Shown in pieces: positions 10,576-40,018 of a stretch of DNA of 41,287 nt. Source of the DNA: Candidatus Aminicenantota bacterium. Lineage in GTDB: Bacteria > Acidobacteriota > Aminicenantia > JAMOAD01. Both the position numbers and the translations under genes were made by a program. The stretch spans positions 1 to 41,287 of the forward strand of contig JAMOVU010000080.1 in the NCBI GenBank assembly GCA_027067555.1. The letters run 5' to 3'. Position 1 is the stretch's first letter. Each line of letters begins with the position of its first letter. The notes below the pieces were generated by a model. It was not told the origin of the DNA. It ran no database searches and saw nothing but the letters and a program-made list of their open reading frames with translations.

Positions 10576-11019
10576 TTAAAGAAATCTTACAAACTTCAAA
10601 TTTCCTTTTTTATTTTTTTTCATAATGCAATTATTTCTCCAATCCTTTTTCTTATAGCATGCTGAAACAATCCTGAGAATACTTCCCGCCTCTCCATCAC
10701 CTTTTATTATCTTGCCCCTTATATTAAATACATCTCTGAAATTTCTTATCTCATCTTTTGTCATTCCTGGGGTTACTACAAAAATTTTATTCTCTTTATC
10801 TTTTAGTGAATATAAATATTTACCTGAAGGGCACGAGCCGCATATGTTTAAATTATAGATAAATACTACCTCCTTTGCCTCTTTAAACTCACGAGCTACA
10901 GAATAACTTATGTTGCCTATTTTAAAGCAATTTCTATTCATATATAAAAACGCCGAGCACATAATAATTATAAATAAGCCCCCTAACAATAAAAAATTAC
11001 TCACTCTATTCTTACTCAT
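10576..11019 (-). CDS. Membrane-anchored thioredoxin-like/CxxC protein (cassette 1, gene 3)
   Basis: MSKNRVSNFLLLGGLFIIIMCSAFLY TM anchor, then VVFIYNLNICGSCPSGKYLYSL with CGSC. The ORF track starts at 11070, but ATG 11019 overlaps the stop of the upstream gene (GATGAGTAA) and looks like the natural coupled start. Confidence 0.6.
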   Translation of the reverse strand: MSKNRVSNFLLLGGLFIIIMCSAFLYMNRNCFKIGNISYSVAREFKEAKEVVFIYNLNICGSCPSGKYLYSLKDKENKIFVVTPGMTKDEIRNFRDVFNIRGKIIKGDGEAGSILRIVSACYKKKDWRNNCIMKKNKKGNLKFVRFL

Positions 11020-12064
11020 CCTTAATATACACTTTATAAACATTATTTTCCAATTTCTCCCCTCTAACATTCTCTCCTGTTGATTGTCCTAACAGATAGA
11101 ACACTAAATTCTTTCCCTCTTTTTCAATAACAAAATCATACCACCTCATATATTTAAAAAATTTATTGTTATAATAATGATTTAGAATATTACCTCTTTT
11201 ATCTATCTCAAGTATCTCAAGACGAGGCATACCTAAAAGAACAAATATCCTTTCTTTGTAAACCTTCGCTGATTTTATTAGATGTGCCGGCCACAAGAAT
11301 CCAGGTTTTTTTGGAGCTTTTTTATCCCATTCTTTGAATCTATCAAGAAGAGGATATTTTATTTTGCCTTTAGAAATCAAATTAAGATTATAATCAAATT
11401 CATAAAGACCATTCCAATTTTCAGGTATATAATAAATTTTATCTTTAACAAGAACAACATTACTCCCAAATCTTAACACCCTGATTTTACTTTTATCTAA
11501 ATCATTATCACAATAATACCGCAATATCTTACCTGTCATATCCATCTTTATGATTATCGGATATCTGCCTTTATATATATCTACAAACGCACAATATATA
11601 TTATCTTTATAAAAAGTAAATTTTTTAAAGTGAACAAAACTCTTTATTCTTTTAACGAATTTAATATTATCATCAAAAACATCAAAAGCAGAGTAATGTT
11701 TAAGGAACATCCTTTTCTTATAAAATTCAATCCATAAAGGAAAATGAAAATCACCCGGACCTTTTCCAATACTTTTATACATTCTTAAAAAGCCCCCGCT
11801 CTTATCAAAAATAACAATTTTATGTCCCATGTGATCAATAATATAAAATTTATTATTGTACAATGCAATGCAAATAGGGTATTTCATAAAAGCTTCTGGT
11901 CTTTCCCTATCGAGTTTGAATTTCTTATCCACTTTCAAATATTTCCACTCTTTTTTAGATTCATAGCTTTTTTGAAGCTTAAGTTTAAATTCAAACAGTT
12001 TATCATAAGCAAATAATCTATTGATAAAAAAAAATAAAAACAGTATCAATACTGTTTTTTTCAT
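11012..12064 (-). CDS. Secreted 6-bladed beta-propeller-like protein (cassette 1, gene 2)
   Basis: Signal peptide MKKTVLILFLFFFINRLFA; repeated blade-like strands (FYIIDHMGHKIVIFDKSGGFLRMYKSIGKGPGDFHFPLWI), the G-K-G-PG-F-P pattern typical of NHL/6-bladed propellers. Confidence 0.7.
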   Translation of the reverse strand: MKKTVLILFLFFFINRLFAYDKLFEFKLKLQKSYESKKEWKYLKVDKKFKLDRERPEAFMKYPICIALYNNKFYIIDHMGHKIVIFDKSGGFLRMYKSIGKGPGDFHFPLWIEFYKKRMFLKHYSAFDVFDDNIKFVKRIKSFVHFKKFTFYKDNIYCAFVDIYKGRYPIIIKMDMTGKILRYYCDNDLDKSKIRVLRFGSNVVLVKDKIYYIPENWNGLYEFDYNLNLISKGKIKYPLLDRFKEWDKKAPKKPGFLWPAHLIKSAKVYKERIFVLLGMPRLEILEIDKRGNILNHYYNNKFFKYMRWYDFVIEKEGKNLVFYLLGQSTGENVRGEKLENNVYKVYIKDE

Positions 12065-12134: not shown

Positions 12135-12377
12135 TTAGTTTGCTGCAGGACAAGAAATTATAGGTCCGGACTTACAATAGATATCACAACTATCCGATGT
12201 TCCAGGTTCTCCGCATGAAGCCGCTCCTCTACATGATGTCAAAGAACTACATCCTAAATCACCACTACCTGCATTCATCATCGCCTTAACTTTAATAGTC
12301 ATTGTAACAATTGCTATTATCCCTAATAATATAATTAAAGCTATTGCTATTTTTTTCTTACCTCTTTTCTTTAACAT
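12135..12377 (-). CDS. Short secreted Cys-rich peptide (80 aa, 6 Cys; cassette 1, gene 1)
   Basis: Strong SD (AAAGGAGGTAAGGTT-ATG), Lys-rich start plus TM/signal MLKKRGKKKIAIALIILLGIIAIVTMTIKVKA, then GDLGCSSLTSCRGAASCGEPGTSDSCDIYCKSGPIISCPAAN. Confidence 0.7.
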   Translation of the reverse strand: MLKKRGKKKIAIALIILLGIIAIVTMTIKVKAMMNAGSGDLGCSSLTSCRGAASCGEPGTSDSCDIYCKSGPIISCPAAN

Positions 12378-12380
12378 AAC

Positions 12381-12443
12381 CTTACCTCCTTTTTTAAAAC
12401 TTTTTTTGATTAGATAAGCTTTTCAGCTTCACAGGAGGTAGGG
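12381..12443 (-). promoter_or_regulatory. Candidate anti-SD/SD sequestering helix upstream of the cassette 1 peptide gene
   Basis: Minus strand CCCTACCTCCT (12443-12433) can pair with the gene's own SD AGGAGGTAAG (12390-12381), 8 contiguous bp across a 42-nt loop; conserved in cassette 2. Confidence 0.55.
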
Positions 12444-12454
12444 TCATGGTGGTT

Positions 12455-12652
12455 TTAATCTGTTATTGCAAAACTTTTCATATATGCATTTTCTATAGGG
12501 AAATATGAGTATGTGTGTGTGTGTGACAAAGCACTCAACCACAAGCCGGATATGTCTTGTCCTAAAATAAGATTCAAAGCCATTAAGTCTTTGTGAGAGT
12601 TGTCCTCTATTAAAATATCCTTTGCTCCACTTTTTCTTTCAAAGCTTATCAT
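12455..12652 (-). CDS. Candidate leader ORF (65 aa) of cassette 1
   Basis: ATG lies about 24 nt downstream of the -10 box. N-terminus MISFERKSG and C-terminus K-FAITD are shared with the cassette 2 leader ORF; the middle contains a CA-repeat-encoded HTHT. Confidence 0.35.
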   Translation of the reverse strand: MISFERKSGAKDILIEDNSHKDLMALNLILGQDISGLWLSALSHTHTYSYFPIENAYMKSFAITD

Positions 12653-12675
12653 ACTCTTTCCCGCCTTAATGTTTC

Positions 12676-12704
12676 AATATATGAAACCATAGCAGGTTTG
12701 TCAA
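12676..12704 (-). promoter_or_regulatory. Sigma70 promoter of cassette 1
   Basis: Minus strand TTGACA-17 nt-TATATT; same spacing and near-identical sequence in cassette 2. Confidence 0.8.
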
Positions 12705-13009
12705 GCTTTTTTGAAATTTTAAATTCTTAAAAATATCAGCACAGATTTCTATAAAAACTACCGTTTCGATAACCGCTTTTATTGTGAAAGGTTTCAGTAA
12801 AAAAATAAATTTGGAATAACTAAATATATGATAAATTTTTTACAATAATAAAATCTCATTAAAAACTAAGCTACTCTTAACCTTCAAGACTCAAACAGCT
12901 TAAAGCTGTGTCCCGTCCTAAAAAAACTGTTCAGCCGTTCGGCTCTTCTGTGGATTTTACTTATCTGCTATGGCGGATCTCCTCACCACAGGAGAATCTC
13001 CGCTATCGC

Positions 13010-13516
13010 TTATTTTCTACAGTTATCATCACAAGCCTTTAATATATTATAAGCTTTGTAGTAAAATGATAACAAAAATTTCTTCAAATATTCTTTTTCA
13101 GCGGGAACTCCGGGAAGGATAAAATATACTATTCCTCTTTCGTCAACTCCGTAAATCGTAGGAGAGTAAATAGGTAAAAATTTACGGTATTTCTTTGACA
13201 TTGGCTCAAGTTCAAACTTTGCTCCGGTGATTTCTCTCAGTTCCTTCTCATTTCCAAGTTCTCTTTCTGAAACTATTCCTCTTACTACAAAATAATCGGG
13301 TAGCTCATTTAAAACATCTATTACACGCAAACAATCATGACAATTCCTCTTTGAAAAAAACATGTAGATGTAAAAGACAGGATTATTCGATTCCTTACGT
13401 TTTACAGTTTTTTTTACCGGAAAGTGTTGAAGTATCGGCTCTCTGCTATTTTTGTAAATAATACTTGAAAGAAATAAAATCCCTACAAGTAAAGTTCCTA
13501 TTATATAGTTTTTCAT
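13010..13516 (-). CDS. Membrane-anchored thioredoxin-like protein with CxxC (cassette 2, gene 3)
   Basis: N-terminal TM; FYIYMFFSKRNCHDCLRVIDVLNELPDYFVVRGIV with CHDC after a beta strand; IYGVDERGIVYFILPG. Confidence 0.7.
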   Translation of the reverse strand: MKNYIIGTLLVGILFLSSIIYKNSREPILQHFPVKKTVKRKESNNPVFYIYMFFSKRNCHDCLRVIDVLNELPDYFVVRGIVSERELGNEKELREITGAKFELEPMSKKYRKFLPIYSPTIYGVDERGIVYFILPGVPAEKEYLKKFLLSFYYKAYNILKACDDNCRK

Positions 13517-13519
13517 TTT

Positions 13520-14620
13520 TTACTTACCCTCATCAATCATTTTAAATTTGAGAATCTTAAATTTCAGATCATCAAACTTATAGGTTTCAGATTGTAAAAC
13601 ATATAAAATTTTCTCCTTACGTTTATAATAAAAAAGAGGATTCCTATCGCTTCTTACCAAAATAGTTTCACTAATTAATGCACCCCTCTTATCATATACA
13701 TGCAAGTAATATGCTTTATTATCTTTTCGTTTATTAAAAAAAGAAAAAATCACCCCTATTTTATTTTTCTCCACAAAAAATATTCGGTTAACATAGGATT
13801 TTTGATACAAATAATCAGCAGCTTCTTTTAGTTTTCTCATTCTTATTAATTTTTTCAATTTCGTCGAAAACACAGGTTTAATGAACTTACTGCTTCTCCC
13901 TTTAATAATAGAAATATTGTTTTTATTTATTACTACCAATCTTAAATTAACGACAGGACATTGGACAAAACTTCCGTCAAAATAATCTCCCAAAATGGCA
14001 GGAGAAATTTTGATAAGGTCATTTACTAAAAATTTGGAATATTCTTTGTCTGTTTTTGATTCGTAAAGGAACCTGGAAGGAAGTAAAAAATTAAATTTTT
14101 GTTTACTTAAATCGTACAATGCGAGGGAATAATAAACTCTTTTATTGTCTTTAATCTTATACATTACACCTGAAATAACTAAATTATTATCATCTATAAT
14201 CTTCATATCGGAAACAAAAAAAGGTAATGACGAGTTTTTTACAAAATGAATACTTCCTTTTTCTTTAACAAAATGCAATAATTTTCTCCTTCTAAAATCA
14301 TAAACAATAATTTCATTTTTCCTTCCTGTTATTAGAGAAGGTGAAACAAATTCACCCGGCCCTAAACCTTTCCTTCCAAACTTTTTAAGAAAATTTCCTT
14401 TTTTATTATAAATTTTTATATCTAACGCACCTTTATCAATTAGAAAAATATCCTCCACTCTATCAACAAATAATGCGGTAGGTTTTAAAATAAAATTATT
14501 ATTATGTTTAAGATAAAACATTTCTATTTTTTTTATATTAAAACTATGTAAATTAACTACAAAAATTTGTAGGGATAAAACAAATATCATAAATATAAAT
14601 TTATAAGTTTTCCACATCAT
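13520..14620 (-). CDS. Secreted 6-bladed beta-propeller-like protein (cassette 2, gene 2)
   Basis: Signal peptide; TALFVDRVEDIFLIDKGALDIKIYNKKGNFLKKFGRKGLGPGEFVSPSLITG propeller blade motif; same position and size as the cassette 1 homologue. Confidence 0.75.
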   Translation of the reverse strand: MMWKTYKFIFMIFVLSLQIFVVNLHSFNIKKIEMFYLKHNNNFILKPTALFVDRVEDIFLIDKGALDIKIYNKKGNFLKKFGRKGLGPGEFVSPSLITGRKNEIIVYDFRRRKLLHFVKEKGSIHFVKNSSLPFFVSDMKIIDDNNLVISGVMYKIKDNKRVYYSLALYDLSKQKFNFLLPSRFLYESKTDKEYSKFLVNDLIKISPAILGDYFDGSFVQCPVVNLRLVVINKNNISIIKGRSSKFIKPVFSTKLKKLIRMRKLKEAADYLYQKSYVNRIFFVEKNKIGVIFSFFNKRKDNKAYYLHVYDKRGALISETILVRSDRNPLFYYKRKEKILYVLQSETYKFDDLKFKILKFKMIDEGK

Positions 14621-14688: not shown

Positions 14689-14898
14689 CTATGGAGTTAC
14701 AATTATACAATCAATTTTCCAATCAGTTGCACAATCATATCTATTTTCACCAAAGATATATACTAATGCACCATCCCATCCGTTATCATCTGCCCATACA
14801 GGGGTTTGTATAAAATTCGCAACAGAAAAGAAAACACCCATTGCCATTAAAACTATCATTAACCCCACAATAATTTTTTTACCTATTTTTTTCAACAT
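14689..14898 (-). CDS. Short secreted Cys-containing peptide (69 aa, 2 Cys; cassette 2, gene 1)
   Basis: SD AGGAGGTAAG; MLKKIGKKIIVGLMIVLMAMGVFFSVANFIQTPVWA leader, similar to MLKKRGKKKIAIALIIL in cassette 1; mature part DDNGWDGALVYIFGENRYDCATDWKIDCIIVTP. Confidence 0.65.
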   Translation of the reverse strand: MLKKIGKKIIVGLMIVLMAMGVFFSVANFIQTPVWADDNGWDGALVYIFGENRYDCATDWKIDCIIVTP

Positions 14899-14901
14899 TT
14901 T

Positions 14902-14968
14902 CTTACCTCCTATCTTAATTTTTTTCTTTTTTTGATTAAATAAATTCCCCGCTTCACAGGAGGTAGGG
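14902..14968 (-). promoter_or_regulatory. Candidate anti-SD/SD sequestering helix upstream of the cassette 2 peptide gene
   Basis: Minus strand CCCTACCTCCT (14968-14958) complementary to AGGAGGTAAG (14911-14902); 46-nt loop of mostly different sequence from copy 1. Confidence 0.55.
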
Positions 14969-14979
14969 TCATGGTGGCT

Positions 14980-15237
14980 TTAATCTGTTATTGCAAAATC
15001 TTTCATATATGCACTTTTTCTGGAGAAATGTGAGAATTGTGTGTGCGTGTGTGTGTGTGTGTGTGTGAAATAGTCGAAGGTTGAAAGTAGAAAGTCGAAA
15101 GAAGCCATTAAGCTTAAAGCTTCAAAGCTTTTCAGACAGCTCTTTCGGCTTAAAGCTATCAAAGCAATTAAGCTTTTACGAGATTTAATCTGTCCTAAAA
15201 TACCCTTTTCGCCACTTTTTCTTTCAAAGCTTATCAT
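14980..15237 (-). CDS. Candidate leader ORF (85 aa) of cassette 2 with CA dinucleotide microsatellite
   Basis: MISFERKSG...HTHTHTHTHT...KDFAITD; start and stop at equivalent positions to copy 1. Confidence 0.35.
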   Translation of the reverse strand: MISFERKSGEKGILGQIKSRKSLIALIALSRKSCLKSFEALSLMASFDFLLSTFDYFTHTHTHTHTQFSHFSRKSAYMKDFAITD

Positions 15238-15260: not shown

Positions 15261-15289
15261 AATATATGAAATAATAGCAGGTTTGTCAA
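15261..15289 (-). promoter_or_regulatory. Sigma70 promoter of cassette 2
   Basis: Minus strand TTGACA-17 nt-TATATT. Confidence 0.8.
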
Positions 15290-26470: not shown

Positions 26471-27469
26471 ATGGAGAAAAAGAGGCTTTATGTTTTCAGC
26501 TCGGGAGAGATTAAGAGAAAGCAGAATACTGTATTTTTTGAAACAAAGGATGGGAAAAAGAAATTTCTGCCTGTTGAAAATATTTCCGAGATACTGCTAT
26601 TCGGAGAGATTAGTATTAATAAAAAAGCACTTGAATTTTTCACGCAAAATGAGATTATCCTTCACTTTTTCAATCATTATGATTATTACATAGGCTCATA
26701 CTATCCCCGTGAGCATTATAACTCAGGTTATATGATTTTAAAGCAAGCTGAATTTTACAATGATGAGAAAAAAAGGCTTGAACTTGCAAAAGAGTTTGTA
26801 AAAGGAGCTGCTGAAAATTCCCTTAAAAATCTTAAATACTACTACAACAGAGGAGCTGATCTGGAAGAGAATATTAAAAACACAAAAGAGCTTAAAACCA
26901 TGCTTGATAAAGTATCCTCAGTTTCAGAACTTATGGCTCTTGAAGGAAATATTAAGGATATTTACTATAAATCATTTGACAAGATAATCAATAACCCTGA
27001 CTTTTTGTTTGAAAAGAGAAGCAGAAAACCTCCCCGCAACTTTATTAATTCAATGATAAGCTTTATAAACACCCTTGTTTACACAGAAGTTCTCTCCCGC
27101 ATATACAGAACCCATCTTGACCCGCGAATCGGATACCTTCATACGACCAACTTCAGAAGATTTTCCCTTAACCTTGATGTAGCCGAAATCTTCAAGCCTC
27201 TCATAGGAGACAGGTTAATCTTTTCCCTTATTAACAGAGGTGTTATAAAAAAGAGTGATTTTGACACACGCTCGGGGGGAATAAGATTTAAAGAAAATGC
27301 GATGAAAGAGATAGTGAAAAGGTATGATGAAAAGTTAAACACCACAATTAAGCTTAAAAATCTCAAAAGAAAGGTATCATACGGAAGGCTCATTCTTCTT
27401 GAGCTTTACAAACTTGAAAAACATCTTATCGGAGAAAAACCCTACCAGCCTTTTGTGGCTGAATGGTAA
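26471..27469 (+). CDS. cas1: CRISPR-associated endonuclease Cas1 (type I-B-like)
   Basis: RLYVFSSGEIKRKQNTVFFETKDGKKKFLPVENISEILLFGEISINKKALEFF...MALEGNIKDIYYKSFDKI...RTHLDPRIGYLHTTNFRRFSLNLDVAEIFKPLIGDRLIF. Confidence 0.96.
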   Translation: MEKKRLYVFSSGEIKRKQNTVFFETKDGKKKFLPVENISEILLFGEISINKKALEFFTQNEIILHFFNHYDYYIGSYYPREHYNSGYMILKQAEFYNDEKKRLELAKEFVKGAAENSLKNLKYYYNRGADLEENIKNTKELKTMLDKVSSVSELMALEGNIKDIYYKSFDKIINNPDFLFEKRSRKPPRNFINSMISFINTLVYTEVLSRIYRTHLDPRIGYLHTTNFRRFSLNLDVAEIFKPLIGDRLIFSLINRGVIKKSDFDTRSGGIRFKENAMKEIVKRYDEKLNTTIKLKNLKRKVSYGRLILLELYKLEKHLIGEKPYQPFVAEW

Positions 27470-27704
27470 AGTAGCAGGAGCATATTCACAAAAATCAATA
27501 TTATTCCGAAATGATTTAATAACAGAGTCAAAGTTATTCTCTAAAAAAAGTGGACAAAGTCAGAAGTATTCACTAAAAATAGTAAATTTATTTTTCAATA
27601 GAGCTTGTCTGATTTATTGTGAAAGCATAGTGAAAATATAAATTAAGATGTAAGCTTTGATAAATTTAAAAAAGGTAGATTTCTCTATCGCATGGAATAA
27701 AAAT

Positions 27705-27781
27705 GCATCCCCGTACAGCAACTCCCCGCTGCCGAGGATACCCATGGTGTATCGGGGGGGAGACCCACACCATGAATATCC
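27705..27781 (-). ncRNA. Candidate double-hairpin small RNA, copy A
   Basis: Minus strand: CATGGTGT-[16-nt loop GGGTCTCCCCCCCGAT]-ACACCATG (8 bp perfect), then GTATCC...GGATGC hairpin with CGGGGAG in its apical region, complementary to CTCCCC in loop 1. Preceded by TTGACA-17-TATATT. Confidence 0.6.
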
Positions 27782-27787
27782 ATTATT

Positions 27788-27816
27788 AATATACGGAAAA
27801 AGTGAAAAAATGTCAA
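27788..27816 (-). promoter_or_regulatory. Sigma70 promoter of RNA A
   Basis: Minus strand TTGACATTTTTTCACTTTTTCCGTATATT (TTGACA-17-TATATT). Confidence 0.75.
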
Positions 27817-27957
27817 CAACCAATAAGCACAAAGCTGGTCCAGTCGACCAGAGCCGGCAATCCAAAGCAGTAGAGATTCTTGAATGACCTTTTAGGTTTT
27901 ATTCAGTGCATCACACAAAAAGCTAACATGAGTTTTCAAATGAAAAATTACAGCCTT

Positions 27958-28761
27958 TCAATAGTTTTTAATAAGTTTTAAAAGATTTTCTTTGGTTATT
28001 AAACTAATTTCCGAAGTATCCTCAATAAAAGGATGGATTTCATTGATAATACTTTTCCATTCAAGTTCTTTTATTTTATCTGATAAGACAGCTTTCCAGT
28101 TGTTAGGTCCTATCTTTTTGCTATAATTAAACTGGATCAATGCATTGTTAAGAAATCTGAAATTGGGTATAACCCTTTCATTATTTGTAAGATACCAGAA
28201 CAAATCATAAATATCCCTACCCTTTGTGTATTCTCTGGTTAAAATCGCATTGAGCTTTCCTGCAAAAAGAGTACTTAGCTCATAGTGTTTAAGGTTTAAA
28301 AGAAAGTATTTTCTTATTATTGTATTCTCAACAATATAACCTTCCGGAGGATTATAATCAACCTCCACTTTTATTGAAATAATTTCATTTTTGTGAGAGG
28401 AAATGTTTAATTCATAAAGAAGGCCCTTAAACTTGAAAAAAACACTTTTGATATTTCCTATTGTTTTTATTTTATACTCAATATCATAAGTTTCAAGTTC
28501 AAATTTCGCGGAAATTTTCCTTACGATTTTTTCAAATTCCGGTTTCTCTCCATTAATAACGGCAAAATCAAGATCTTCCGAAAAACGCTTTAATGAATAG
28601 AGAAATCTGAGAGCTGTCCCCCCAAGGAATGCAATACTGTGAAATACCCCCATCTCCTGCAAATATTTTAAAATCTTTGCTTGAAGATATTCTCTCAATA
28701 CCAACCTCTTTTTAACAGGTTCATTAATTTTCGAAAGTATCTCTTTCAACTCTTCTTTCAT
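27958..28761 (-). CDS. Nucleotidyltransferase toxin, AbiEii family (type IV TA)
   Basis: VFHSIAFLGGTALRFLYSLKRFSEDLDFAVI nucleotidyltransferase motif; AGKLNAILTREYTKGRDIYDLFWYL; overlaps the AbiEi gene. Confidence 0.92.
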   Translation of the reverse strand: MKEELKEILSKINEPVKKRLVLREYLQAKILKYLQEMGVFHSIAFLGGTALRFLYSLKRFSEDLDFAVINGEKPEFEKIVRKISAKFELETYDIEYKIKTIGNIKSVFFKFKGLLYELNISSHKNEIISIKVEVDYNPPEGYIVENTIIRKYFLLNLKHYELSTLFAGKLNAILTREYTKGRDIYDLFWYLTNNERVIPNFRFLNNALIQFNYSKKIGPNNWKAVLSDKIKELEWKSIINEIHPFIEDTSEISLITKENLLKLIKNY

Positions 28762-29360
28762 TTGTAAATCTCCTCAATCATAGATACTGCTTTTGCAATT
28801 TTTCTCTTTCCTGTGCTAATCGCATAATCTTTTAATTTTTCCATATCAATTGTTTCAAGGTTTTGAAGCCTCAACTCTTTAATATAATTTTCGCTTGTAT
28901 CATTCAGATAAAAAAGATCTATCAATGCTTTTTCCCTCTCAGCAACAAAGACTTTCTCTCCTTCTATGTCTATTTTCTTATATCCGAAAAAAAGAGGTTT
29001 TTTTATGTGTCTGTAGATAAACACTCCCAATTGATTTTTAATTATTTGCGGTCGAGCAGTCGTAACACTCATAATAGTTGGTACATACTCCGGTATAAGT
29101 GAATAGTGGGAAAGAGCTGACTCAAGGGAAACATAAGAAGGGAAATTAATGGTGTTTCCAATTAAAAATTGAGAAGGGAATTTATCGGTATAAGGTTTGT
29201 TAATTACATAGTAGCCTCTTTTTAGCTTTATGAGTTTTCCTTGCTCAACCCACCTTGAAAGCTGCACTCTCAAGTAAACAGGATTCTCAATAGTGGCTAA
29301 AAATCCTGTTGTAATTATAGGATTATCTTTTGCAATTCTTAAAAGCTCATCCCATTTCAT
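28758..29360 (-). CDS. AbiEi-family antitoxin/transcriptional regulator (type IV TA)
   Basis: wHTH N-terminus (TTGFLATIENPVYLRVQLSRWVEQGKLIKLKRGYYVI); FPSYVSLESALSHYSLIPEYVPTIMSVTTARP; VFVAEREKALIDLFYL. Confidence 0.92.
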   Translation of the reverse strand: MKWDELLRIAKDNPIITTGFLATIENPVYLRVQLSRWVEQGKLIKLKRGYYVINKPYTDKFPSQFLIGNTINFPSYVSLESALSHYSLIPEYVPTIMSVTTARPQIIKNQLGVFIYRHIKKPLFFGYKKIDIEGEKVFVAEREKALIDLFYLNDTSENYIKELRLQNLETIDMEKLKDYAISTGKRKIAKAVSMIEEIYK

Positions 29361-29453
29361 TTCAAAATCTTATCATACATGATAATATATTGCAATAATA
29401 TTGCTCTAAAATCAACTTCGGGGAAAAAAACATTAAACTAAATGCTCTTCCAG

Positions 29454-29491
29454 CTTTTCGCAGAGCTGGGCAGTAGCCCCGAGCCGAAAAG
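29454..29491. ncRNA. Candidate strong nested hairpin, GC-rich island (element C)
   Basis: CTTTTCG-caga-GCT-GGGC-agta-GCCC-cg-AGC-CGAAAAG; 7+3+4 bp nested stem in otherwise very AT-rich DNA. Confidence 0.45.
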
Positions 29492-29628
29492 GGCCGACAG
29501 CTTTTTTAAACTTACCTTGGACATTAGGGTGAAAAATTGTAAAAAAGACGCTTTTTTCCTGAACAATTTTTCCTTGATTTTTTTCAAGATAATTCTTTTA
29601 ATCATAACAACACCCTGCTATTTTTTTG

Positions 29629-29666
29629 TTCTAACGGAAAAACATCCAAATATTTTTCCGTTAGAA
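29629..29666. repeat. Perfect 14-bp inverted repeat
   Basis: TTCTAACGGAAAAA-catccaaata-TTTTTCCGTTAGAA. Confidence 0.9.
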
Positions 29667-29850
29667 TATGATTTAGTACCTACAAACGCGGATGTCAAAT
29701 TTTCGAAAATTTCAAGCTTTTAATCCCCTAAATGTCAAAGTGAAGCGGAGATCCGCCGTGGTTTTCCCTGTCATTCCCGGTCTGAATAAAAAAACCAATA
29801 TGTTCTAAAATCATTGAGATTCAAAATTTTGTCATACATATTAAATCCCA

Positions 29851-29901
29851 AATAACGAATTATTGTTATTAATATAAAGCAAATAACATTATATTGTTAT
29901 T
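29851..29901. promoter_or_regulatory. Two direct copies of an imperfect palindrome (operator-like), 31 bp apart
   Basis: AATAACGAATTATTGTTATT (29851-29870) and AATAACATTATATTGTTATT (29882-29901). Confidence 0.5.
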
Positions 29902-30107
29902 TTGTCACACTATTTTAGGACAAGATAAAAAAAAGCTTCGATGCTTTGAGGCTTTAAGCTCAAAGACTTTTTTATTCTTTTTCTTTCGACTTTTATTAAA
30001 AAGATATAAATTTTCTTTGAAAAACCCCCCCTCAAATCGCAAAATACGACCCCTTGTTTTCATCCATTTTTTTACCCTTTTTAGGGCTAATTTTACACCT
30101 TTAAATC

Positions 30108-30136
30108 TTGACATTTTTTTAATTTTTCCGTATATT
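30108..30136 (+). promoter_or_regulatory. Sigma70 promoter of RNA B
   Basis: TTGACATTTTTTTAATTTTTCCGTATATT (TTGACA-17-TATATT), nearly identical to the RNA A promoter. Confidence 0.75.
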
Positions 30137-30142
30137 AGTAAT

Positions 30143-30215
30143 GTCCGTTGTGGAGTCGGCCTTCCCCCGTTAACTCCACAAGGATATCTTCCGTCGGGAA
30201 GGGACAGGAAGATAA
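30143..30215 (+). ncRNA. Candidate double-hairpin small RNA, copy B
   Basis: TTGTGGAGT-[16-nt loop CGGCCTTCCCCCGTTA]-ACTCCACAA (9 bp), then TATCTTCC-[GTCGGGAAGGGACA]-GGAAGATA (8 bp). Loop 1 CCTTCCC is complementary to loop 2 GGGAAGG. Confidence 0.65.
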
Positions 30216-30533
30216 CTCTTCTTTTATTTTCCCTTTTTCTCATAAATTAACCTCCCATCTTCTCTGTTTTTCCCAATCTCATTAATAGAAATCTTAAACA
30301 TTGTAATTATTCTCATCTGTTCCTTATCAATTAACACAAAAGAACTATATTTCCTTCATCACTTATAAACCCACCAATAACTTTATATACTCTGCCATCA
30401 TCCCATATCTCAAACGGGTTTTTTAAAGATTCCAAAAATTCAATCCTTTGTAAAGCAGTAGAAAGGACAAAGTACAAAGTATAAAGTTTTTTTTTATTCT
30501 TTCGACTTTTAACTTTTGACTTTAGACTGTCTC

Positions 30534-33500
30534 GTTTCAATCCTTTATAAGTAATATATAAATAATGATTTTAAAAAGAATATGCAAGCAATAATAATTC
30601 GTTTCAATCCTTTATAAGTAATATATAAATAAGTGATGGAACATTTTTTAGAGGAGCTTTGTCGAAGTTTCAATCCTTTATAAGTAATATATAAATTAAT
30701 TATCAGCAAATTGAGATAATAACATACCAGTGTTTCAATCCTTTATAAGTAAGATATAAACAAAGTAGGCAATATTTCCGTAATTTATAATATTAGTTTC
30801 AATCCTTTATAAGTAAGATATAAACAAGACTACTCATTTTTTCCTCCGCTACCTTGAAAGGGTTTCAATCCTTTATAAGTAAGATATAAACTGTGAATTC
30901 CGGGAAATATGCAAAGCAGATGGAAGTTTCAATCCTTTATAAGTAAGATATAAACTGCACGAAACTTAGATGAAAATGATCGAACTTTTGTGTTTCAATC
31001 CTTTATAAGTAATATATAAATAAGATATTCCGGATTCAATTTGTATTGTAATTTCTAGTTTCAATCCTTTATAAGTAAGATATAAACTTCCGATGTAGAA
31101 GCGACAGCGTCAAGCTTTTATTAGTTTCAATCCTTTATAAGTAAGATATAAACGAAGTAGGTCCGAATGCTTCCGTTTCTGCAACAGTGTTTCAATCCTT
31201 TATAAGTAAGATATAAACTCCTGTAAAGTTCCAGAGCTATCATAAAGTTTTGCTGTTTCAATCCTTTATAAGTAAGATATAAACCCTTTCATAACCACCT
31301 CCTCATAAGTTTTTCAATCTTGTTTCAATCCTTTATAAGTAAGATATAAACAGAATTACATGAATATGTGTTTGTTGAAGGTATAGGGTTTCAATCCTTT
31401 ATAAGTAAGATATAAACAACACTCAGGTCATGATTGACTTGGATGGCAGAGCAAGTTTCAATCCTTTATAAGTAAGATATAAACGTTCAAAGATTTTTTT
31501 CTTTTCTACTGGATTAATTTTGTTTCAATCCTTTATAAGTAAGATATAAACTCTGACATCAATTTTCTTTGCAACCTCTTCCGGAAGTTTCAATCCTTTA
31601 TAAGTAAGATATAAACGTCAAATCTGTCGTATAACCTGTTGTTGCTGTCCCGTGTTTCAATCCTTTATAAGTAAGATATAAACGGGAGGAGTGCAACGCT
31701 CCTCCCTTTTTTTTTACTCGTTTCAATCCTTTATAAGTAAGATATAAACCTGCCCAGATTTAGATGGTATCATTACCATCTCTTGTTTCAATCCTTTATA
31801 AGTAAGATATAAACATGTTAAGAAAAGAGGGGGTATCTTTCAAGGTAGAGTTTCAATCCTTTATAAGTAAGATATAAACATTGCAAAAGCTATGGCAATG
31901 CAGTGGGGAAGAGCTTGTTTCAATCCTTTATAAGTAAGATATAAACGATTGACTTACCAAATTGTTAAAGAGCCGTAGTCCGGTTTCAATCCTTTATAAG
32001 TAAGATATAAACCATACGCCACGCCAGTTGCTATTTACAATCAAAAAGAGTTTCAATCCTTTATAAGTAAGATATAAACGACCAGAAGGTTAAAACTTTA
32101 TACTAAAGTATACCAGTTTCAATCCTTTATAAGTAAGATATAAACCGATATGGCTTGTGTCAAAAAAACGACAGAAACGAGTTTCAATCCTTTATAAGTA
32201 AGATATAAACACCTTTTGTAAACACGATGCCGAAAAAAAATATGTTGTTTCAATCCTTTATAAGTAAGATATAAACCGCATTCTTCGCCATCCAGCTTTT
32301 TATATTTATCTAGTTTCAATCCTTTATAAGTAAGATATAAACGTCAATGTGGTTATTGACAATCATTGTATGTGTTTTGGTTTCAATCCTTTATAAGTAA
32401 GATATAAACTCAAACTTGCTTCCGGTTTTAATTCTTTATTGTTTAGTTTCAATCCTTTATAAGTAAGATATAAACTTGTCACCCCCATATAAGCGATGAT
32501 TTCATATTTTGGTTTCAATCCTTTATAAGTAAGATATAAACAATATTTCCCTGCTACATGTTTCATGTCAAAACTCAGTTTCAATCCTTTATAAGTAAGA
32601 TATAAACGAAAAAATAGAAAATGAGATACCGGAAGTAAAAGAGTTTCAATCCTTTATAAGTAAGATATAAACCTTCTTCCTTCATCTACCATCTTTTTTC
32701 ACCTCACTGTTTCAATCCTTTATAAGTAAGATATAAACGGATCAATCAGGAAGGGAAAAAAGAAAAAGGAATGGTGTTTCAATCCTTTATAAGTAAGATA
32801 TAAACTTATCACTTCTCCCTCTCTTACTTCAAATGTTACTTGTTTCAATCCTTTATAAGTAAGATATAAACTAATAATTTTCCTGCTCCTCTAAAACCTT
32901 GAAAGATGTTTCAATCCTTTATAAGTAAGATATAAACGGTTTTTATCTTTTAATACTTCCTCTGCAAGCATAAGTTTCAATCCTTTATAAGTAAGATATA
33001 AACTTATAGCAACATAAGTTTCTCAGATAGACTAAGGGATAGTTTCAATCCTTTATAAGTAAGATATAAACACCCCTTTTATTGGTATTTTTATTATAGG
33101 ATTAATATCGTTTCAATCCTTTATAAGTAAGATATAAACTAATCATGAAAAATATTTAAGATGGGGACCTACAAAGTTTCAATCCTTTATAAGTAAGATA
33201 TAAACATCATTATTTTGCGGTAAGGAATATGATGGAGAAGGAGTTTCAATCCTTTATAAGTAAGATATAAACACGAGGGGAGTTGAAATTGAAGGATAGA
33301 GGGTTACGTTTCAATCCTTTATAAGTAAGATATAAACTACTTCTTTTACATTTGTAGTCTTTCCTCCGCCTGTGTTTCAATCCTTTATAAGTAAGATATA
33401 AACTGCAACTTCAAGCCCTCTTGTTTTTACATCTCGGAGTTTCAATCCTTTATAAGTAAGATATAAACTAAACTGTCCTGTTATTTCAAAACCATTTTTC

Positions 33501-35981
33501 TTCAGTTTCAATCCTTTATAAGTAAGATATAAACGCATCTTATACTTATTCAGATTTAGCAAGCGATACAAGTTTCAATCCTTTATAAGTAAGATATAAA
33601 CTGAAAAATACGAAGTTGTTATGAACATTGAGGAAAGTTTCAATCCTTTATAAGTAAGATATAAACAGGCTGGACAATAGGGGCTGCAATAGGAAAAGGA
33701 AGTTTCAATCCTTTATAAGTAAGATATAAACCCCCCACCGTATATCCAATTACATTCCCGGTGCTTTGTTTCAATCCTTTATAAGTAAGATATAAACAAA
33801 CATCTTCTTTTTCTATCATTTTATATCCTCATATGTTTCAATCCTTTATAAGTAAGATATAAACATTCTTTTGATGCCTTAGAAGAGGCGGAGAAAGAAT
33901 AGTTTCAATCCTTTATAAGTAAGATATAAACGGATGCGCAGCTTCAGGCGGTTTTAAAAAGTACGGGGTTTCAATCCTTTATAAGTAAGATATAAACAAA
34001 TTCCTGTTCCACTTGTGTCTGCTGAACTGCCGTGTTTCAATCCTTTATAAGTAAGATATAAACAAGGCGGTTGCTCGGTATGTGATACTTGCCAGCAATG
34101 TGTTTCAATCCTTTATAAGTAAGATATAAACACCTTTTTCGCCTCTCTTAACTGCTTTGTATAAGCCAGTTTCAATCCTTTATAAGTAAGATATAAACTC
34201 TTTTAAAGCTATCAACCTTTGGACTTTCAATAGTTTGTTTCAATCCTTTATAAGTAAGATATAAACAGGAAGCGGAAAAGTAGAAAAAATATCCGGAGCA
34301 TGTTTCAATCCTTTATAAGTAAGATATAAACAGAGTTTACGGTGGTAAAGAGTTTTTTGATGTATAGTTTCAATCCTTTATAAGTAAGATATAAACGGGG
34401 AAAGAGGTGGTTCCGCCACCTCTCCCCTGTGAAGTTTCAATCCTTTATAAGTAAGATATAAACTGTTATTGTTGGTTCTGCAAGCGAAAATGGATTGAGT
34501 TTCAATCCTTTATAAGTAAGATATAAACACTTTTAAATAAGGAGGTGTTTTATGCCACTAAAAATGTTTCAATCCTTTATAAGTAAGATATAAACGTGTA
34601 ATGTCCCAGCATCAGTATCGCCTGTATTTCCAGTTTCAATCCTTTATAAGTAAGATATAAACGGTTGCAACCTTTTTGACAACCGAATACTTGAAAAAGA
34701 GTTTCAATCCTTTATAAGTAAGATATAAACAACTTCATTTATTCTATCTATTACTTTCATTTATTCGTTTCAATCCTTTATAAGTAAGATATAAACGATT
34801 ATTATAAAATGATTAGTGGTTTTAGAAAATATTAGTTTCAATCCTTTATAAGTAAGATATAAACGCAAAATCTCTTGTATCATATCAAGCGGGATTAAAT
34901 GTTTCAATCCTTTATAAGTAAGATATAAACAGCTCAGAGCCAGCAAGAATAAAAGACCTAAAAGAGTTTCAATCCTTTATAAGTAAGATATAAACGGTGC
35001 TTCCGGAAGGATGTCTATATCAATTTCCTCGTTTCAATCCTTTATAAGTAAGATATAAACCATGCTTGGCCTCATCAACAGCAAGCGTTGACGAGTTTCA
35101 ATCCTTTATAAGTAAGATATAAACGGACTTGGAAAAGTTATGATAAATAAAAAATACAGCCGTTTCAATCCTTTATAAGTAAGATATAAACGATGCTTTT
35201 TCTAACCTTTTTCTGATTTTGTCTAATTGTTTCAATCCTTTATAAGTAAGATATAAACTTTTTCTTTTGCCAACCATTCTCAATAGCTGACATGTTTCAA
35301 TCCTTTATAAGTAAGATATAAACGTAAAAGCAATTCCGGATTTTTTAGACAATGAGCCGGGTTTCAATCCTTTATAAGTAAGATATAAACGGCTTGCTAT
35401 GACACGAAAACAAAAGAAACGAAAGGTTTCAATCCTTTATAAGTAAGATATAAACAACTTCTGGAGCCGGAATTTCTCCAAATTTATCAATGTTTCAATC
35501 CTTTATAAGTAAGATATAAACTTTTCATCAGCAAGTTTTCTGAAATTTTGAGCTATAGTTTCAATCCTTTATAAGTAAGATATAAACTATCCTATGCTCT
35601 CCACCTTTAAAAATCTTTGCCCTGGTTTCAATCCTTTATAAGTAAGATATAAACGAGGAATGAGAAATCGTTTCTCGACCACCGGACTCTGTTTCAATCC
35701 TTTATAAGTAAGATATAAACTTTGTTTCGAAGTCGATAAATATACTATTATAAGCAGTTTCAATCCTTTATAAGTAAGATATAAACGAATGAGAAAAACT
35801 TCTCAAATTTCAGAGAAAAACGTTTCAATCCTTTATAAGTAAGATATAAACCAAAAAAGAAAGGGGTTAGCAGAACAAAAGTAGATTGTTTCAATCCTTT
35901 ATAAGTAAGATATAAACTTTGCAGATGTTAAATTATATCCGCCATAATCATCTTTCAATCCTTTATAAGTAAGATATAAAC
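30534..35981 (-). CRISPR. Type I-B CRISPR array, 83 repeats / 82 spacers by manual count, transcribed right-to-left
   Basis: 30-bp repeat, plus strand GTTTCAATCCTTTATAAGTAAGATATAAAC (crRNA sense GTTTATATCTTACTTATAAAGGATTGAAAC, ends in the ATTGAAAC 5' handle). Unit length 64-68 bp. Repeat variants concentrate at the left (trailer) end; leader promoter on the right. Confidence 0.98.
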
Positions 35982-36140
35982 ACATTTATTCCCTTTTATT
36001 CAAAGGCTTTGTGTCTTTTGGCAAATTGTCAAAGATCTATGTTTAACAAATTAAAATAAGACTTTTTTCCTTTAATGTCAATGGTTTTTCTATTCTGTCT
36101 AACCCATTAGAATTTTACACTATCTCAGGTTGACTTAAAA
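35982..36140 (-). promoter_or_regulatory. CRISPR leader with promoter (36053-36081)
   Basis: Minus strand TTGACATTAAAGGAAAAAAGTCTTATTTT (TTGACA-17-TATTTT), AT-rich, directly upstream of the canonical-repeat end of the array. Confidence 0.8.
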
Positions 36141-36404
36141 TCAAAGGATGTTATCAGGGCTCTGCTTTTCTTTGCCCATTACCTCTCTTTCATAGTATTT
36201 AAGTGTTCTGAATTTGTAGAACAGGATTGAATCCTCATCCTTTTTTATTATTTTTGAAAGCTCTGTTTTAAGTTTAACAAGCTTTGCCTTTGTAATCTCC
36301 CCTTCAAAAACCGAATTTTGAACCCAGTTAAGATACTTTCTACACACTTTTAAAACCTTAGCCACCCTCTTCTCTTTAATATCATAAACAAGAATAACAA
36401 ACAT
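36141..36404 (-). CDS. cas2: CRISPR-associated endoribonuclease Cas2
   Basis: MFVILVYDIKEKRVAKVLKVCRKYLNWVQNSVFEGEITKAKLVKLKTEL. Confidence 0.96.
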   Translation of the reverse strand: MFVILVYDIKEKRVAKVLKVCRKYLNWVQNSVFEGEITKAKLVKLKTELSKIIKKDEDSILFYKFRTLKYYEREVMGKEKQSPDNIL

Positions 36405-36492
36405 ATTTTAGAATAACATAAACTTTTTAATTTTCAAAAAACTATTTACTTTTTTAAAGTATTATGTTATAAAAAATGATAAAGGGGTTTTT

Positions 36493-36537
36493 ATGAAAAT
36501 ATTTGTTGTAAAATTATTCTTTAGCGGGGGAAAATGA
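36493..36537 (+). CDS. Candidate 14-aa upstream ORF (MKIFVVKLFFSGGK*) overlapping the cas8b start
   Basis: AAAGGGG SD-like sequence then ATG; its TGA overlaps the cas8b ATG (ATGA). Confidence 0.3.
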   Translation: MKIFVVKLFFSGGK

Positions 36538-38360
36538 TTGAAGGAGTTTATAGGATAGGAAAAGTTTTGCCAGAAAAGGATTTTTTGGAAGAGTTTATTG
36601 ATAATCCCGGTGATAATATAAAGAATGTATTTAAAATTGTAATTGATATAAATGATAAAAATAGCCCAAAGTATAAAGGTATTAAATATGAGGAGTATGA
36701 TTCTTCAAAAAAGTTAAAATATTTTTATAAAAGAGGTTCTGCAAATGGACCCGACAAAACACCTACTTCAAAAATCACACAAATAGAAAAAACTTTTAAT
36801 AATAAAATTAAAAATGTTTTTGATAAATATTTAAAAGGAAATGAGCAGTTCTTAAGTAATGATGAGAAAATATTTATTTCTAATCTTCACAATTTAATAA
36901 GCAAAGAATATGATAATATTCAAAATGACTTAAAAGATTTTGCTAAAACAAATGGATTTTTGAGAAATGACAACGAATTTTATGAGCCTTCTATTATTAC
37001 TTTTGTATTTAAAGAGAATGGGACAGAGTATTATATAGGAGATTCGGATTTATTTGTAAATGTCTTTAAAAACAATGAAAAGGAAGCATATAAAAGCTTT
37101 TATAATAAATTTAATACGGAAAGTAGATCAAAAAACAAATACTGTTATATTTGCGAAAAGGAAGCAAATGAAGTATGGGGATTTGTAAATACTTATAATT
37201 TTTATACAGCAGATAAAGAAAGTTATGTTGCAGGAGGATTTAAACAAGAATTTATGTGGAAAAATTATCCTGTATGTTCTGAATGTGCAAAAGTGCTTGA
37301 AAGAGGAAAAAAGTATATAAATGAAAATCTTTCGTATAAATTTTGTGGCTTTAACTATTTGCTTGTTCCTGAACTGTTAATTAATAATGAGGATCTGTTA
37401 AGACAACTTTTAAATACTTTAATCAAATACAAGGATTTTTCTTTATCTGAAACTAAATCCACATTAATTGAAAAAGTTGAAGAGAGAACTTTAAGAGTTT
37501 TGAGTAGAGTAAACAATCAAATAAATTTTAACTTTTTATTTTATGAGAAATCAAATTCTGCCTTTAAGATTTTGCTTTATCTAAGGGAAATTGCCCCTAC
37601 AAGATTGAAATTTTTAATTGATTCAAAAGATGCTGTAGATAATACTGAAAGAAAATTTAAAATTTTTCAGGAGATAAAAACAAAAAAAGATACAATTAAT
37701 TTTAATTTTTCTTTCACTTTTATAAGAGATTTTTTCCCAAATTCGAAAAGAGATGGTAAATTTGATAATTATTTTCTTTCAATATTAAATAATATTTTTA
37801 TTGGCAAAAGTATATCTTTGGATTTTTTAGTACACAGGTTTATGGAAAAAATTAGGTCAGAATTTTTAAATGATAACTGGATTGAACCTTGGATTTTAAA
37901 ATCGTACAAGATACTAATATATCTGGAAGAAATTAAGTTATTAGATAGAAGGAGGAATAAAATGAAAAATTATCAAAATAATTATGAAGAGTTTTTTAAA
38001 GAGAATCCTATTTTTGATGATGAAACTAAAAAAGCCTTATTTTTAGAAGGAGTTTTAGCACAGAAGCTTTTGAATATACAATATCAGGAAAGAAATGCGA
38101 CACCATTTAGGAGCAGACTTAATGGATTAAAGATTGATGAAAAAGTGGCTAAAAGACTGCTTCCGGAAATTATTAACAAGTTGGAGGAATATAATAAAAA
38201 TTATTATAAAGAATTAGAGGAAAGAATAGGAGAATATTTGTTAAATTCTGATTTTAAAAAATATTCTATTGATGAGATGAGTTATTATTTTACACTCGGT
38301 ATGGTATTGGCTAAATATTTTAAATTTGATAAAGAAGAAAAAGAGGAAAAGGAGGTGTAA
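36534..38360 (+). CDS. cas8b: Type I-B Cascade large subunit Cas8b/Csh1
   Basis: 608 aa with Zn-finger CYICEKEANEVWGF...YPVCSECAKVLERG; immediately followed by Csh2-type cas7. Confidence 0.88.
   Translation: MIEGVYRIGKVLPEKDFLEEFIDNPGDNIKNVFKIVIDINDKNSPKYKGIKYEEYDSSKKLKYFYKRGSANGPDKTPTSKITQIEKTFNNKIKNVFDKYLKGNEQFLSNDEKIFISNLHNLISKEYDNIQNDLKDFAKTNGFLRNDNEFYEPSIITFVFKENGTEYYIGDSDLFVNVFKNNEKEAYKSFYNKFNTESRSKNKYCYICEKEANEVWGFVNTYNFYTADKESYVAGGFKQEFMWKNYPVCSECAKVLERGKKYINENLSYKFCGFNYLLVPELLINNEDLLRQLLNTLIKYKDFSLSETKSTLIEKVEERTLRVLSRVNNQINFNFLFYEKSNSAFKILLYLREIAPTRLKFLIDSKDAVDNTERKFKIFQEIKTKKDTINFNFSFTFIRDFFPNSKRDGKFDNYFLSILNNIFIGKSISLDFLVHRFMEKIRSEFLNDNWIEPWILKSYKILIYLEEIKLLDRRRNKMKNYQNNYEEFFKENPIFDDETKKALFLEGVLAQKLLNIQYQERNATPFRSRLNGLKIDEKVAKRLLPEIINKLEEYNKNYYKELEERIGEYLLNSDFKKYSIDEMSYYFTLGMVLAKYFKFDKEEKEEKEV
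37962..38360 (+). CDS. cas11b: Internal in-frame Cas11b small subunit (132 aa) translated from within cas8b
   Basis: AAGGAGG (37949-37955), 6-nt spacer, ATG at 37962, in frame with cas8b (offset 1428 nt = 476 codons). The encoded C-terminal segment MKNYQNNYEEFFKENP... looks alpha-helical. Confidence 0.7.
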   Translation: MKNYQNNYEEFFKENPIFDDETKKALFLEGVLAQKLLNIQYQERNATPFRSRLNGLKIDEKVAKRLLPEIINKLEEYNKNYYKELEERIGEYLLNSDFKKYSIDEMSYYFTLGMVLAKYFKFDKEEKEEKEV

Positions 38361-38362
38361 TT

Positions 38363-39262
38363 ATGTGTATAAAAAAAAGAATTGAACTTTTATTTTGTTA
38401 TGATGTTAAAGATGCCAATCCAAACGGTGATCCTTTGGATGAAAACAAACCGAGAATTGATGAAGAAACAAAAATTAATATTGTAACCGATGTTAGATTA
38501 AAAAGAACCATCAGAGATTATCTATATGAATACAAAGGGTACAATGGACATAATGGAAAAGACATTTTTGTAAGAGAGATTTTTATTGATGATGACCCAA
38601 CCAAAGGTATTCAAGATGGTAAAACAAGAGCTAAAGATTATAATAATAATGCAGAAAATGTATTAAGAGAATGTATTGATATTAGATTATTTGGTGGAGT
38701 TATCCCCTTAGATAAAGATTCCATTACATATACAGGTCCAGTTCAATTTAAAATGGGGCGTTCCCTACATAAAGTTGAGTTAAAACATATTAAGGGAACG
38801 GGTGCTTTTGCTTCAAAAGCTGGTGCAAAACAGGCAACATTTAGAGAAGAGTATATTCTCCCTTATTCTTTCATCTGCTTTCACGGAGTAATCAATGAAA
38901 CAGCAGCAAAACATACAAAATTAACTGATGATGATGTTAAGGAATTATTAGAAGCAATGTGGAATGGAACAAAAAATCTTATAAGTCGTTCTAAGTTCGG
39001 ACAAATGCCAAGATTTTTATTAAAAGTTACCTATAAAGAGCCGGGATTTTTTATTGGCGATTTGGATAAAAAAATAAAACTTACAAGTTATGAAAATGAT
39101 TTTAGCATAAGAAATGTAAAAGATTTTAAATTGGATATTGAAGAACTAAAAAAATCATTTGAAGAAAATAAAGAGAAAATAGAATCCATAGAATACAAAA
39201 TTGATAATAATTTATGTATAGTCAATGACATCCCAGAAAATTGGGAACAATTGCAAATTTAA
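38363..39262 (+). CDS. cas7: Type I-B Cas7 (Csh2)
   Basis: LLFCYDVKDANPNGDPLDENKPRIDEETKINIVTDVRLKRTIRDYL...DIRLFGGVIPL...TGPVQFKMGRSLH. Confidence 0.97.
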   Translation: MCIKKRIELLFCYDVKDANPNGDPLDENKPRIDEETKINIVTDVRLKRTIRDYLYEYKGYNGHNGKDIFVREIFIDDDPTKGIQDGKTRAKDYNNNAENVLRECIDIRLFGGVIPLDKDSITYTGPVQFKMGRSLHKVELKHIKGTGAFASKAGAKQATFREEYILPYSFICFHGVINETAAKHTKLTDDDVKELLEAMWNGTKNLISRSKFGQMPRFLLKVTYKEPGFFIGDLDKKIKLTSYENDFSIRNVKDFKLDIEELKKSFEENKEKIESIEYKIDNNLCIVNDIPENWEQLQI

Positions 39263-39277
39263 CTATGAGGGATTAAT

Positions 39278-40018
39278 ATGAAAATAGTTGTGTTTGATAT
39301 ATGGGGTGATTTAGCACATTTTAGACTCCCATATACTACAAGTTCTCCTCTAACTTTCCCTGTTCCGCCGAAGACTGCTTTATATGGAATTATTGGAGCT
39401 ATTTTAGGGTATGATAAGAATAATTATTTAAAGAAATTCCAGAATGAAAATTGGAAATTTGCAGTTAGTGTTAAAAATAAAATATCTACAATAAGAATAC
39501 CCGAAAATCTTATTAATACAAAAGCTGTTAAAATGTTTGCCCGTATGCCAAAAGGTAAATCATGCAGAACACAGATAAATTTTGAATTTATAAAAAATCC
39601 ATATTTTAGGATATATGTTACATCCTTAAATGAAACTAAATTAAATGAATTGGAAACATTATTGAAAGAGCATAAATCTAACTATACTGTATCATTTGGA
39701 ATATCTGAATGCCTTGCAAACTTTCTTTATATTGGTTCATATGAGGCGCAAGAAAAGCAAAATGATAATTTTGTTGAAATAAATACTATTGTCCCCTTGA
39801 AGTATATTAATAATTCTTCGCAAATTAATTTCTTAATTGAAGGGAGAAAGTATCTTAGAATTCATATGCCAACAGAAATGAAACCAGATAGGGAATTGGT
39901 GGAAAGTGAAGATTTTATTTTAGAAGCGAATGCTAATCCTATAAGTGTCAAATCTATAGAATATCTTAAATTGAATAATTTAAAGGAAAATAGGGAAGAA
40001 AATATCATAATGTTTTAA
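39278..40018 (+). CDS. cas5: Type I-B Cas5
   Basis: VFDIWGDLAHFRLPYTTSSPLTFPVPPKTALYGIIGAILG. Confidence 0.95.
   Translation: MKIVVFDIWGDLAHFRLPYTTSSPLTFPVPPKTALYGIIGAILGYDKNNYLKKFQNENWKFAVSVKNKISTIRIPENLINTKAVKMFARMPKGKSCRTQINFEFIKNPYFRIYVTSLNETKLNELETLLKEHKSNYTVSFGISECLANFLYIGSYEAQEKQNDNFVEINTIVPLKYINNSSQINFLIEGRKYLRIHMPTEMKPDRELVESEDFILEANANPISVKSIEYLKLNNLKENREENIIMF

Follow-up and report, generated by a model that had tools for sequence, protein, structure and literature searches.

Tract-bearing leaders that mask Shine-Dalgarno sequences, a probable phase-variable translational switch of peptide/beta-propeller cassettes in Aminicenantia

Genetic organization of the locus

The window, which denotes here the whole stretch of 41,287 nucleotides that was analysed, carries two consecutive cassettes on its minus strand. 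Each is composed of a promoter, a leader and the genes coding for a small peptide, a 6-bladed beta-propeller and a small thioredoxin-like protein (Table 1). The leader comprises ORF1 and, past the ORF1 stop codon, the conserved block CCACCATGACCCTACCTCCTGTGAAGC. Neither the peptides nor ORF1 are given a name by Pfam or NCBIfam. DUF5128 beta-propeller matches number 19 in the genome of the window (G000), 27 in G001 (same genus, Candidatus Aminicenantes JALVQI01), 24 in G004 (same family, other genus, JAMOUT01), two in G002 and none in G003.

Elsewhere in the window, positions 26471-40018 resemble by eye a CRISPR-Cas locus with cas1-/cas2-like genes, a putative array place at 30.3-36.1 kb, where long ORFs are lacking, and cas genes at 36.5-40 kb that look like subtype I-B, also judged by eye. 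The gene pair at 27958-29360 looks by eye like AbiEi/AbiEii, and a similar pair is found among the G001 cassettes (L129:5124-6525).

Table 1. Features of the two cassettes, in coordinates of the window.
Feature	Position	Strand	Remarks
Cassette 1 promoter TTGACA-17-TATATT	12676..12704	-	11/12 consensus matches; kept upstream of other complete leader copies
Cassette 1 ORF1 (leader ORF), 65 aa, MISFERKSG...FAITD, then stop	12455..12652	-	frame A stop, TAA
Cassette 1 (CA)7 tract within ORF1	12512..12525	-	from sequence; length varies among copies
Cassette 1 ORF2, MTLPPVKLKSLSNQKKF, then stop; without SD	12394..12447	-	ATG overlaps ORF1 frame C stop (ATGA); ends 16 nt before peptide start
Cassette 1 antisense arm CAUGACC.UACCUCCU	12433..12448	-	includes anti-SD TACCTCCT at 12440-12433
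Cassette 1 masked initiation region AGGAGGUA.GGUUAUG (SD + AUG)	12375..12390	-	SD AGGAGGTA at 12390-12383
Cassette 1 peptide gene, 80 aa, Cys-rich, probably exported	12135..12377	-	homologue behind a leader in G001 (L129:11509)
Cassette 1 6-bladed beta-propeller, DUF5128-like	11012..12064	-	weak Pfam match, below cut-off
Cassette 1 small thioredoxin-like protein, inferred from context	10576..11022	-	position and CxxC motif; no Pfam match above cut-off
Cassette 2 promoter TTGACA-17-TATATT	15261..15289	-	from sequence
Cassette 2 ORF1, 85 aa	14980..15237	-	frame A stop
Cassette 2 (CA)10 tract within ORF1	15048..15067	-	from sequence
Cassette 2 ORF2, MTLPPVKRGIYLIKKRKKLR, then stop	14910..14972	-	TAG stop overlaps SD
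Cassette 2 anti-SD UACCUCCUGU	14956..14965	-	TACCTCCT part at 14965-14958
Cassette 2 masked SD AUAGGAGGUA	14904..14913	-	AGGAGGTA part at 14911-14904
Cassette 2 peptide gene, 69 aa, probably exported	14689..14898	-	from sequence
Cassette 2 6-bladed beta-propeller (DUF5128)	13520..14620	-	Pfam PF17170, E 6e-10, over cut-off
Cassette 2 thioredoxin/glutaredoxin-like protein	13010..13516	-	weak Pfam match, below cut-off

Masking of the peptide gene initiation region

The first-pass annotation of this DNA had claimed that the leader carries an anti-Shine-Dalgarno sequence (TACCTCCT) complementary to the SD of the peptide gene (AGGAGGTA). The complementarity, its coordinates and the leader ORF are borne out in both cassettes, as are the loops of 42 nt (cassette 1) and 46 nt (cassette 2) that had been reported between the two elements. 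The distance of 11 nt given from the ORF1 stop to the anti-SD is actually 14 nt when counted to TACCTCCT, and it is the same in the two cassettes, as had been stated. The helix of cassette 1 is larger than previously described. CAUGACC also pairs with GGUUAUG and the start codon is therefore masked too. In cassette 2 the helix grows in the opposite direction (UACCUCCUGU/AUAGGAGGUA). The duplex of the leader with the region from SD to AUG has energies of -24.0 kcal/mol (cassette 1) and -17.0 kcal/mol (cassette 2), neither of which is reached by any of 1000 dinucleotide shuffles (0/1000). The predicted probability that the SD is paired is 1.00 in the window cassettes versus a mean of 0.63 in 90 other SD-bearing genes, about one tenth of which are at 0.95 or above; note that this region is over-represented among the loci that supplied the background genes, three or more of which are themselves leader-controlled. 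The whole 145-nt stretch of cassette 2 folds ordinarily (z -0.19), the SD helix alone being unusual. The SD helix was also considered as an intrinsic terminator, a reading that was rejected because the helix ends on the AUG and no T run follows.

The strength of the SD/AUG helix and the conservation of an A-rich element in its loop (GATTTAATCAAAAAAA) are also what would be expected of an RNA thermometer or ligand sensor, in which heat melts the SD helix or a ligand binds it and the ORFs are accidental. Such a device is very improbable here: the Rfam search of the window yielded two tRNAs only and no match to a riboswitch or leader family, and the open ORF1, its tract and the start/stop overlaps (see below) would be left unexplained. 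As a separate observation, the conserved loop (GATTTAATCAAAAAAA) has a TTTAAT that is the complement of the ATTAAA at the ORF1 stop, at 12400-12470 and in homologous leaders, and the two could form, together with the SD helix, a pseudoknot or an alternative fold.

Copies of the leader and conservation of the pairing

The conserved block is present seven times in G000: twice in the window, twice on contig C135 and once each on C11, C23 and C155. The number of cassettes is probably underestimated because the last three contigs end inside leaders. The G000 block has no true match among 142 other genomes of the class; near matches (L072-L081) were dismissed as chance resemblance of unrelated sequence, several lying plainly inside genes. 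Peptide genes of the same type are preceded by homologous leaders in G001 (five copies) and G004 (one copy), which brings the total to 13 copies in three species.

Copies lacking complementarity to the downstream SD, which would argue against its relevance, were not encountered: 13 out of 13 keep it. The pairing differs between species in sequence and in position, being TACCTCC/GGAGGTA in G000, ACCTCCGTA/TACGGAGGT in G001, where it extends up to ACCTCCGTAAT against ATTACGGAGGT, and ACCTCCGT/ACGGAGGT in G004. At the corresponding place G000 has CCACC, which breaks the fit, and TACCTCC found further on pairs instead with GGAGGTA; most G000 copies pair over the AUG of the peptide gene as well. 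Dinucleotide shuffles match the pairing at most 6 times in 1000 for 11 of the 13 copies (0/1000 for six of the seven in G000, up to 5/1000 for four of the five in G001, and 6/1000 in G004). In the other two, C11 of G000 and C92 of G001, the pairing has decayed and the shuffle test is non-significant. SD pairing is predicted at 0.99-1.00 in 12 copies and at 0.80 in one, versus the background mean of 0.63. Two-sided changes are seen at one pair in G000 (G-C in C155 versus T-A in C80, the window contig) and at one pair in G001 (T-A in C92 versus G-C in its paralogues). These changes were read copy by copy and not by column because C92 of G001 has its SD wrongly placed in the MAFFT alignment. Since copies within a species are not independent, weight is put on the presence in three species and on the positional shift. 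Judged from these sequences, the pairing itself is what is conserved, and the leader has the attributes of SD sequestration, namely a complementarity to the SD of the next gene that exceeds chance and is maintained.

The G000 leaders are ~87-93% identical and the genes behind them differ. Their identity ahead of unrelated peptides is consistent with a mobile or recombining repeat devoid of regulatory role, the conservation of the block reflecting recent duplication or gene conversion; contigs that break in leaders and the dispersed repeat that forms the middle of ORF1 point the same way. Duplication leaves unexplained, however, that anti-SDs of different sequence and position pair with the SD in G001 and G004, and a leader without function has only a slight probability.

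ORF1, its dinucleotide tract and reading frames

In each of the nine complete copies no stop interrupts ORF1 between its ATG and the tract, whereas stops are present in the other frames (in cassette 1, frame 0 is open and the other two have 8 and 1 stops). Its middle region (GCTTTAAGCCC..GAGCTGCC..GAGGCTT) is a dispersed repeat in these genomes (L087-L091, L095, L097-L099). That ORF1 might code for a conserved protein was rejected on account of this repeat and of the variable C-terminal frame. The tract follows the middle region and is (CA)n of 14-24 nt in G000, (CA)n of 6-32 nt in G001 and (CT)10 in G004, its length variation being seen solely among paralogues, with each genome represented by one MAG consensus assembly. 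Two G001 copies have a tract of 6 nt and therefore little slippage is expected there.

The variable tract length causes copies to end ORF1 in different frames. Behind the tract, frame B ends well upstream, frame A at the conserved TAA and frame C 11 nt beyond A. The nine complete copies are at present in frame A (five, including both window cassettes), B (three) and C (one). Frame usage in these sequences looks random; absence of selection on frame fits as well.

When the genomes were searched with (C[A/T])9, G000 gave ten tracts, G001 and G004 three each, and G002 and G003 none. All these 16 tracts of at least 18 nt are within the leaders described here or within a sister class. Such tracts occur also in 16 other genomes of the class, where the 9 loci examined represent other settings and not such leaders. 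The sister leader class, MAGLKGTNGFT(LS)n, is found on C25, C30 and C76 of G000 and on C30 and C59 of G004 (L241-L245) and has a short ORF (MAGLKGTNGFTLSLS...) with (CT)n close to its start, so placed that tract length sets an immediate TAA versus a longer ORF.

ORF2 and predicted opening of the SD helix

The ATG of a second short ORF, ORF2, overlaps the frame C stop of ORF1 in 12 of the 13 copies (ATGA, TAATG, TGATG). ORF2 has no SD of its own and is 12-23 codons long (7 in G004). It ends within -29 to +7 of the peptide start in 12 copies: at +7 in all five G001 copies despite in-frame indels, and between -29 and +3 in G000. Its end in G004 is far upstream of the peptide gene. Chance would place ORF2 in this way with a probability of 0.03-0.17 per copy, which is only moderately unlikely, and paralogues are not independent. 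The changes in ORF2 among C135a, C23 and C155 are all synonymous, but at two variable sites only, and the ratio in G001 is near even. ORF2 is probably translated, by re-initiation.

The effect of a terminating ribosome was modelled by masking 10 nt past the stop codon, a footprint assumed from general knowledge, followed by folding of the RNA for SD accessibility. The predicted accessibility in the free RNA is 0.00-0.22. For G000, the frame C stop alone opens the SD (0.37-0.77). Frames A and C both open it in G001 and G004 (0.58-0.84) save for one copy, C219 of G001 (0.03), and the frame B stop never does so. The first-pass annotation had proposed that a ribosome finishing the leader ORF could open or close the SD helix. 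The proposal holds in kind, sequestration being backed by 13 copies from three species, and fails at the stop that had been named: the frame A stop of the window cassettes frees at most the AUG, the predicted SD accessibility being 0.00. According to the mask model, the stop that opens the SD lies in another frame, is reached by an altered (CA)n and overlaps the ORF2 start. Neither the role of the tract nor ORF2 had been considered in that annotation. On these results the earlier interpretation is partly supported, with control probably exerted at the repeat tract and where ORF1 meets ORF2, not at the frame A stop alone.

Proposed mechanism

The leader is probably a phase-variable translational switch, a proposal built on the complementarity, the tract, the frames and the start/stop overlaps present in its sequence. 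A single transcript, if initiated at the promoter, would carry ORF1, the SD-less ORF2 and the peptide gene. Tract length would set the frame after the tract and hence the position at which ribosomes translating ORF1 stop. The SD would stay hidden when no ribosome gets to the ORF1/ORF2 junction. If ORF1 ends at the junction, a ribosome terminating there would displace the anti-SD arm and re-initiate on ORF2, and the ORF2 ribosome may then proceed to the peptide gene by termination and a further re-initiation. Slippage of the tract in the population would raise or lower individual cassettes in individual cells. The broader proposal that, in this uncultured phylum, cassettes for secreted peptides and beta-propellers throughout the genome undergo independent phase variation through dinucleotide slippage, SD/AUG unmasking and a two-step re-initiation relay is evenly balanced between being right and wrong.

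The leader might also work with no phase variation at all, by translational coupling or attenuation of the ordinary kind: translation of ORF1/ORF2 would uncover the sequestered SD, possibly upon a signal, and the tract would be carried along passively in a recombining leader. Sequestration and overlapping ORF starts and stops hold without the tract, and two G001 copies are nearly tract-less with a long open ORF1 in frame A. The two leader classes, however, have different dinucleotides at one and the same place, and all long tracts of the three genomes are confined to leaders. In addition, the C-terminal frame differs among copies, which makes a stalling peptide unlikely. Such a scheme without phase variation is rather unlikely, its probability being well below that of a phase-variable switch.

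Relation to known systems

In the translation attenuation systems of ermC and cat-86 a leader ORF precedes a helix that hides the SD, and the position of the ribosome opens this helix. The leaders described here likewise have an ORF upstream of a helix hiding a downstream SD. In ermC and cat-86 stalling is drug-induced and occurs at fixed codons, whereas the frame at the end of ORF1 varies by copy. Conserved stalling codons of the ermC type are absent, frame and residues at the C-terminus differing among leader copies, and a fixed stalling peptide is unlikely because of this difference in frame. Overlap of a stop codon with a start codon (ATGA, TAATG) is a means of translational coupling. Overlaps of this type link ORF1 in frame C to ORF2, and ORF2 to the peptide gene in G001 (ATGNNTAA) and in C135b of G000, with the particularity that the ORF1/ORF2 junction is used in only one of the three frames set by the tract.

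Among described systems, the pil1 leader of Streptococcus gallolyticus comes closest; its mode of action would here be transferred to translation initiation. In pil1, GCAGA repeats in the leader peptide bring the stop codon to a terminator (PMC3894217). In pil1 and pil3, tandem repeats of a leader ORF shift frame and stop, and a ribosome near the hairpin opens it, turning surface genes on (PMC3894217). The leaders studied here share the tandem repeat inside a leader ORF, whose repeat number shifts the stop relative to a regulatory hairpin. They have no intrinsic transcription terminator before the first gene, and feature CA or CT, a helix masking SD/AUG and the intervening ORF2 in place of GCAGA and a transcription terminator. 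They also differ in their phylum and in their number, 13 across three genomes. The literature search, with subscription papers mostly outside it, retrieved no such case for Aminicenantes and pil1 alone as a case of repeats in a leader peptide.

If the proposed switch is true, it would represent phase variation at translation initiation through a leader-ORF relay, with many cassettes per genome and outside host-associated bacteria. The peptide/beta-propeller cassettes would then be surface or secreted traits switched by single Aminicenantes cells. A tract in a leader ORF with an anti-SD at its end provides a signature for the search of other genomes.

In other cassettes (L088, L092, L131, L132, L146) no anti-SD was found. 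Their peptides combine a Cys/Gly-rich core (CGCGCYYxxxGGSS) with a leader of the double-glycine type (MKKLKLTKLSRKELEKIRGG); the one peptide tested had no Pfam match. These Cys/Gly-rich peptides possibly form an undescribed family of exported peptides.
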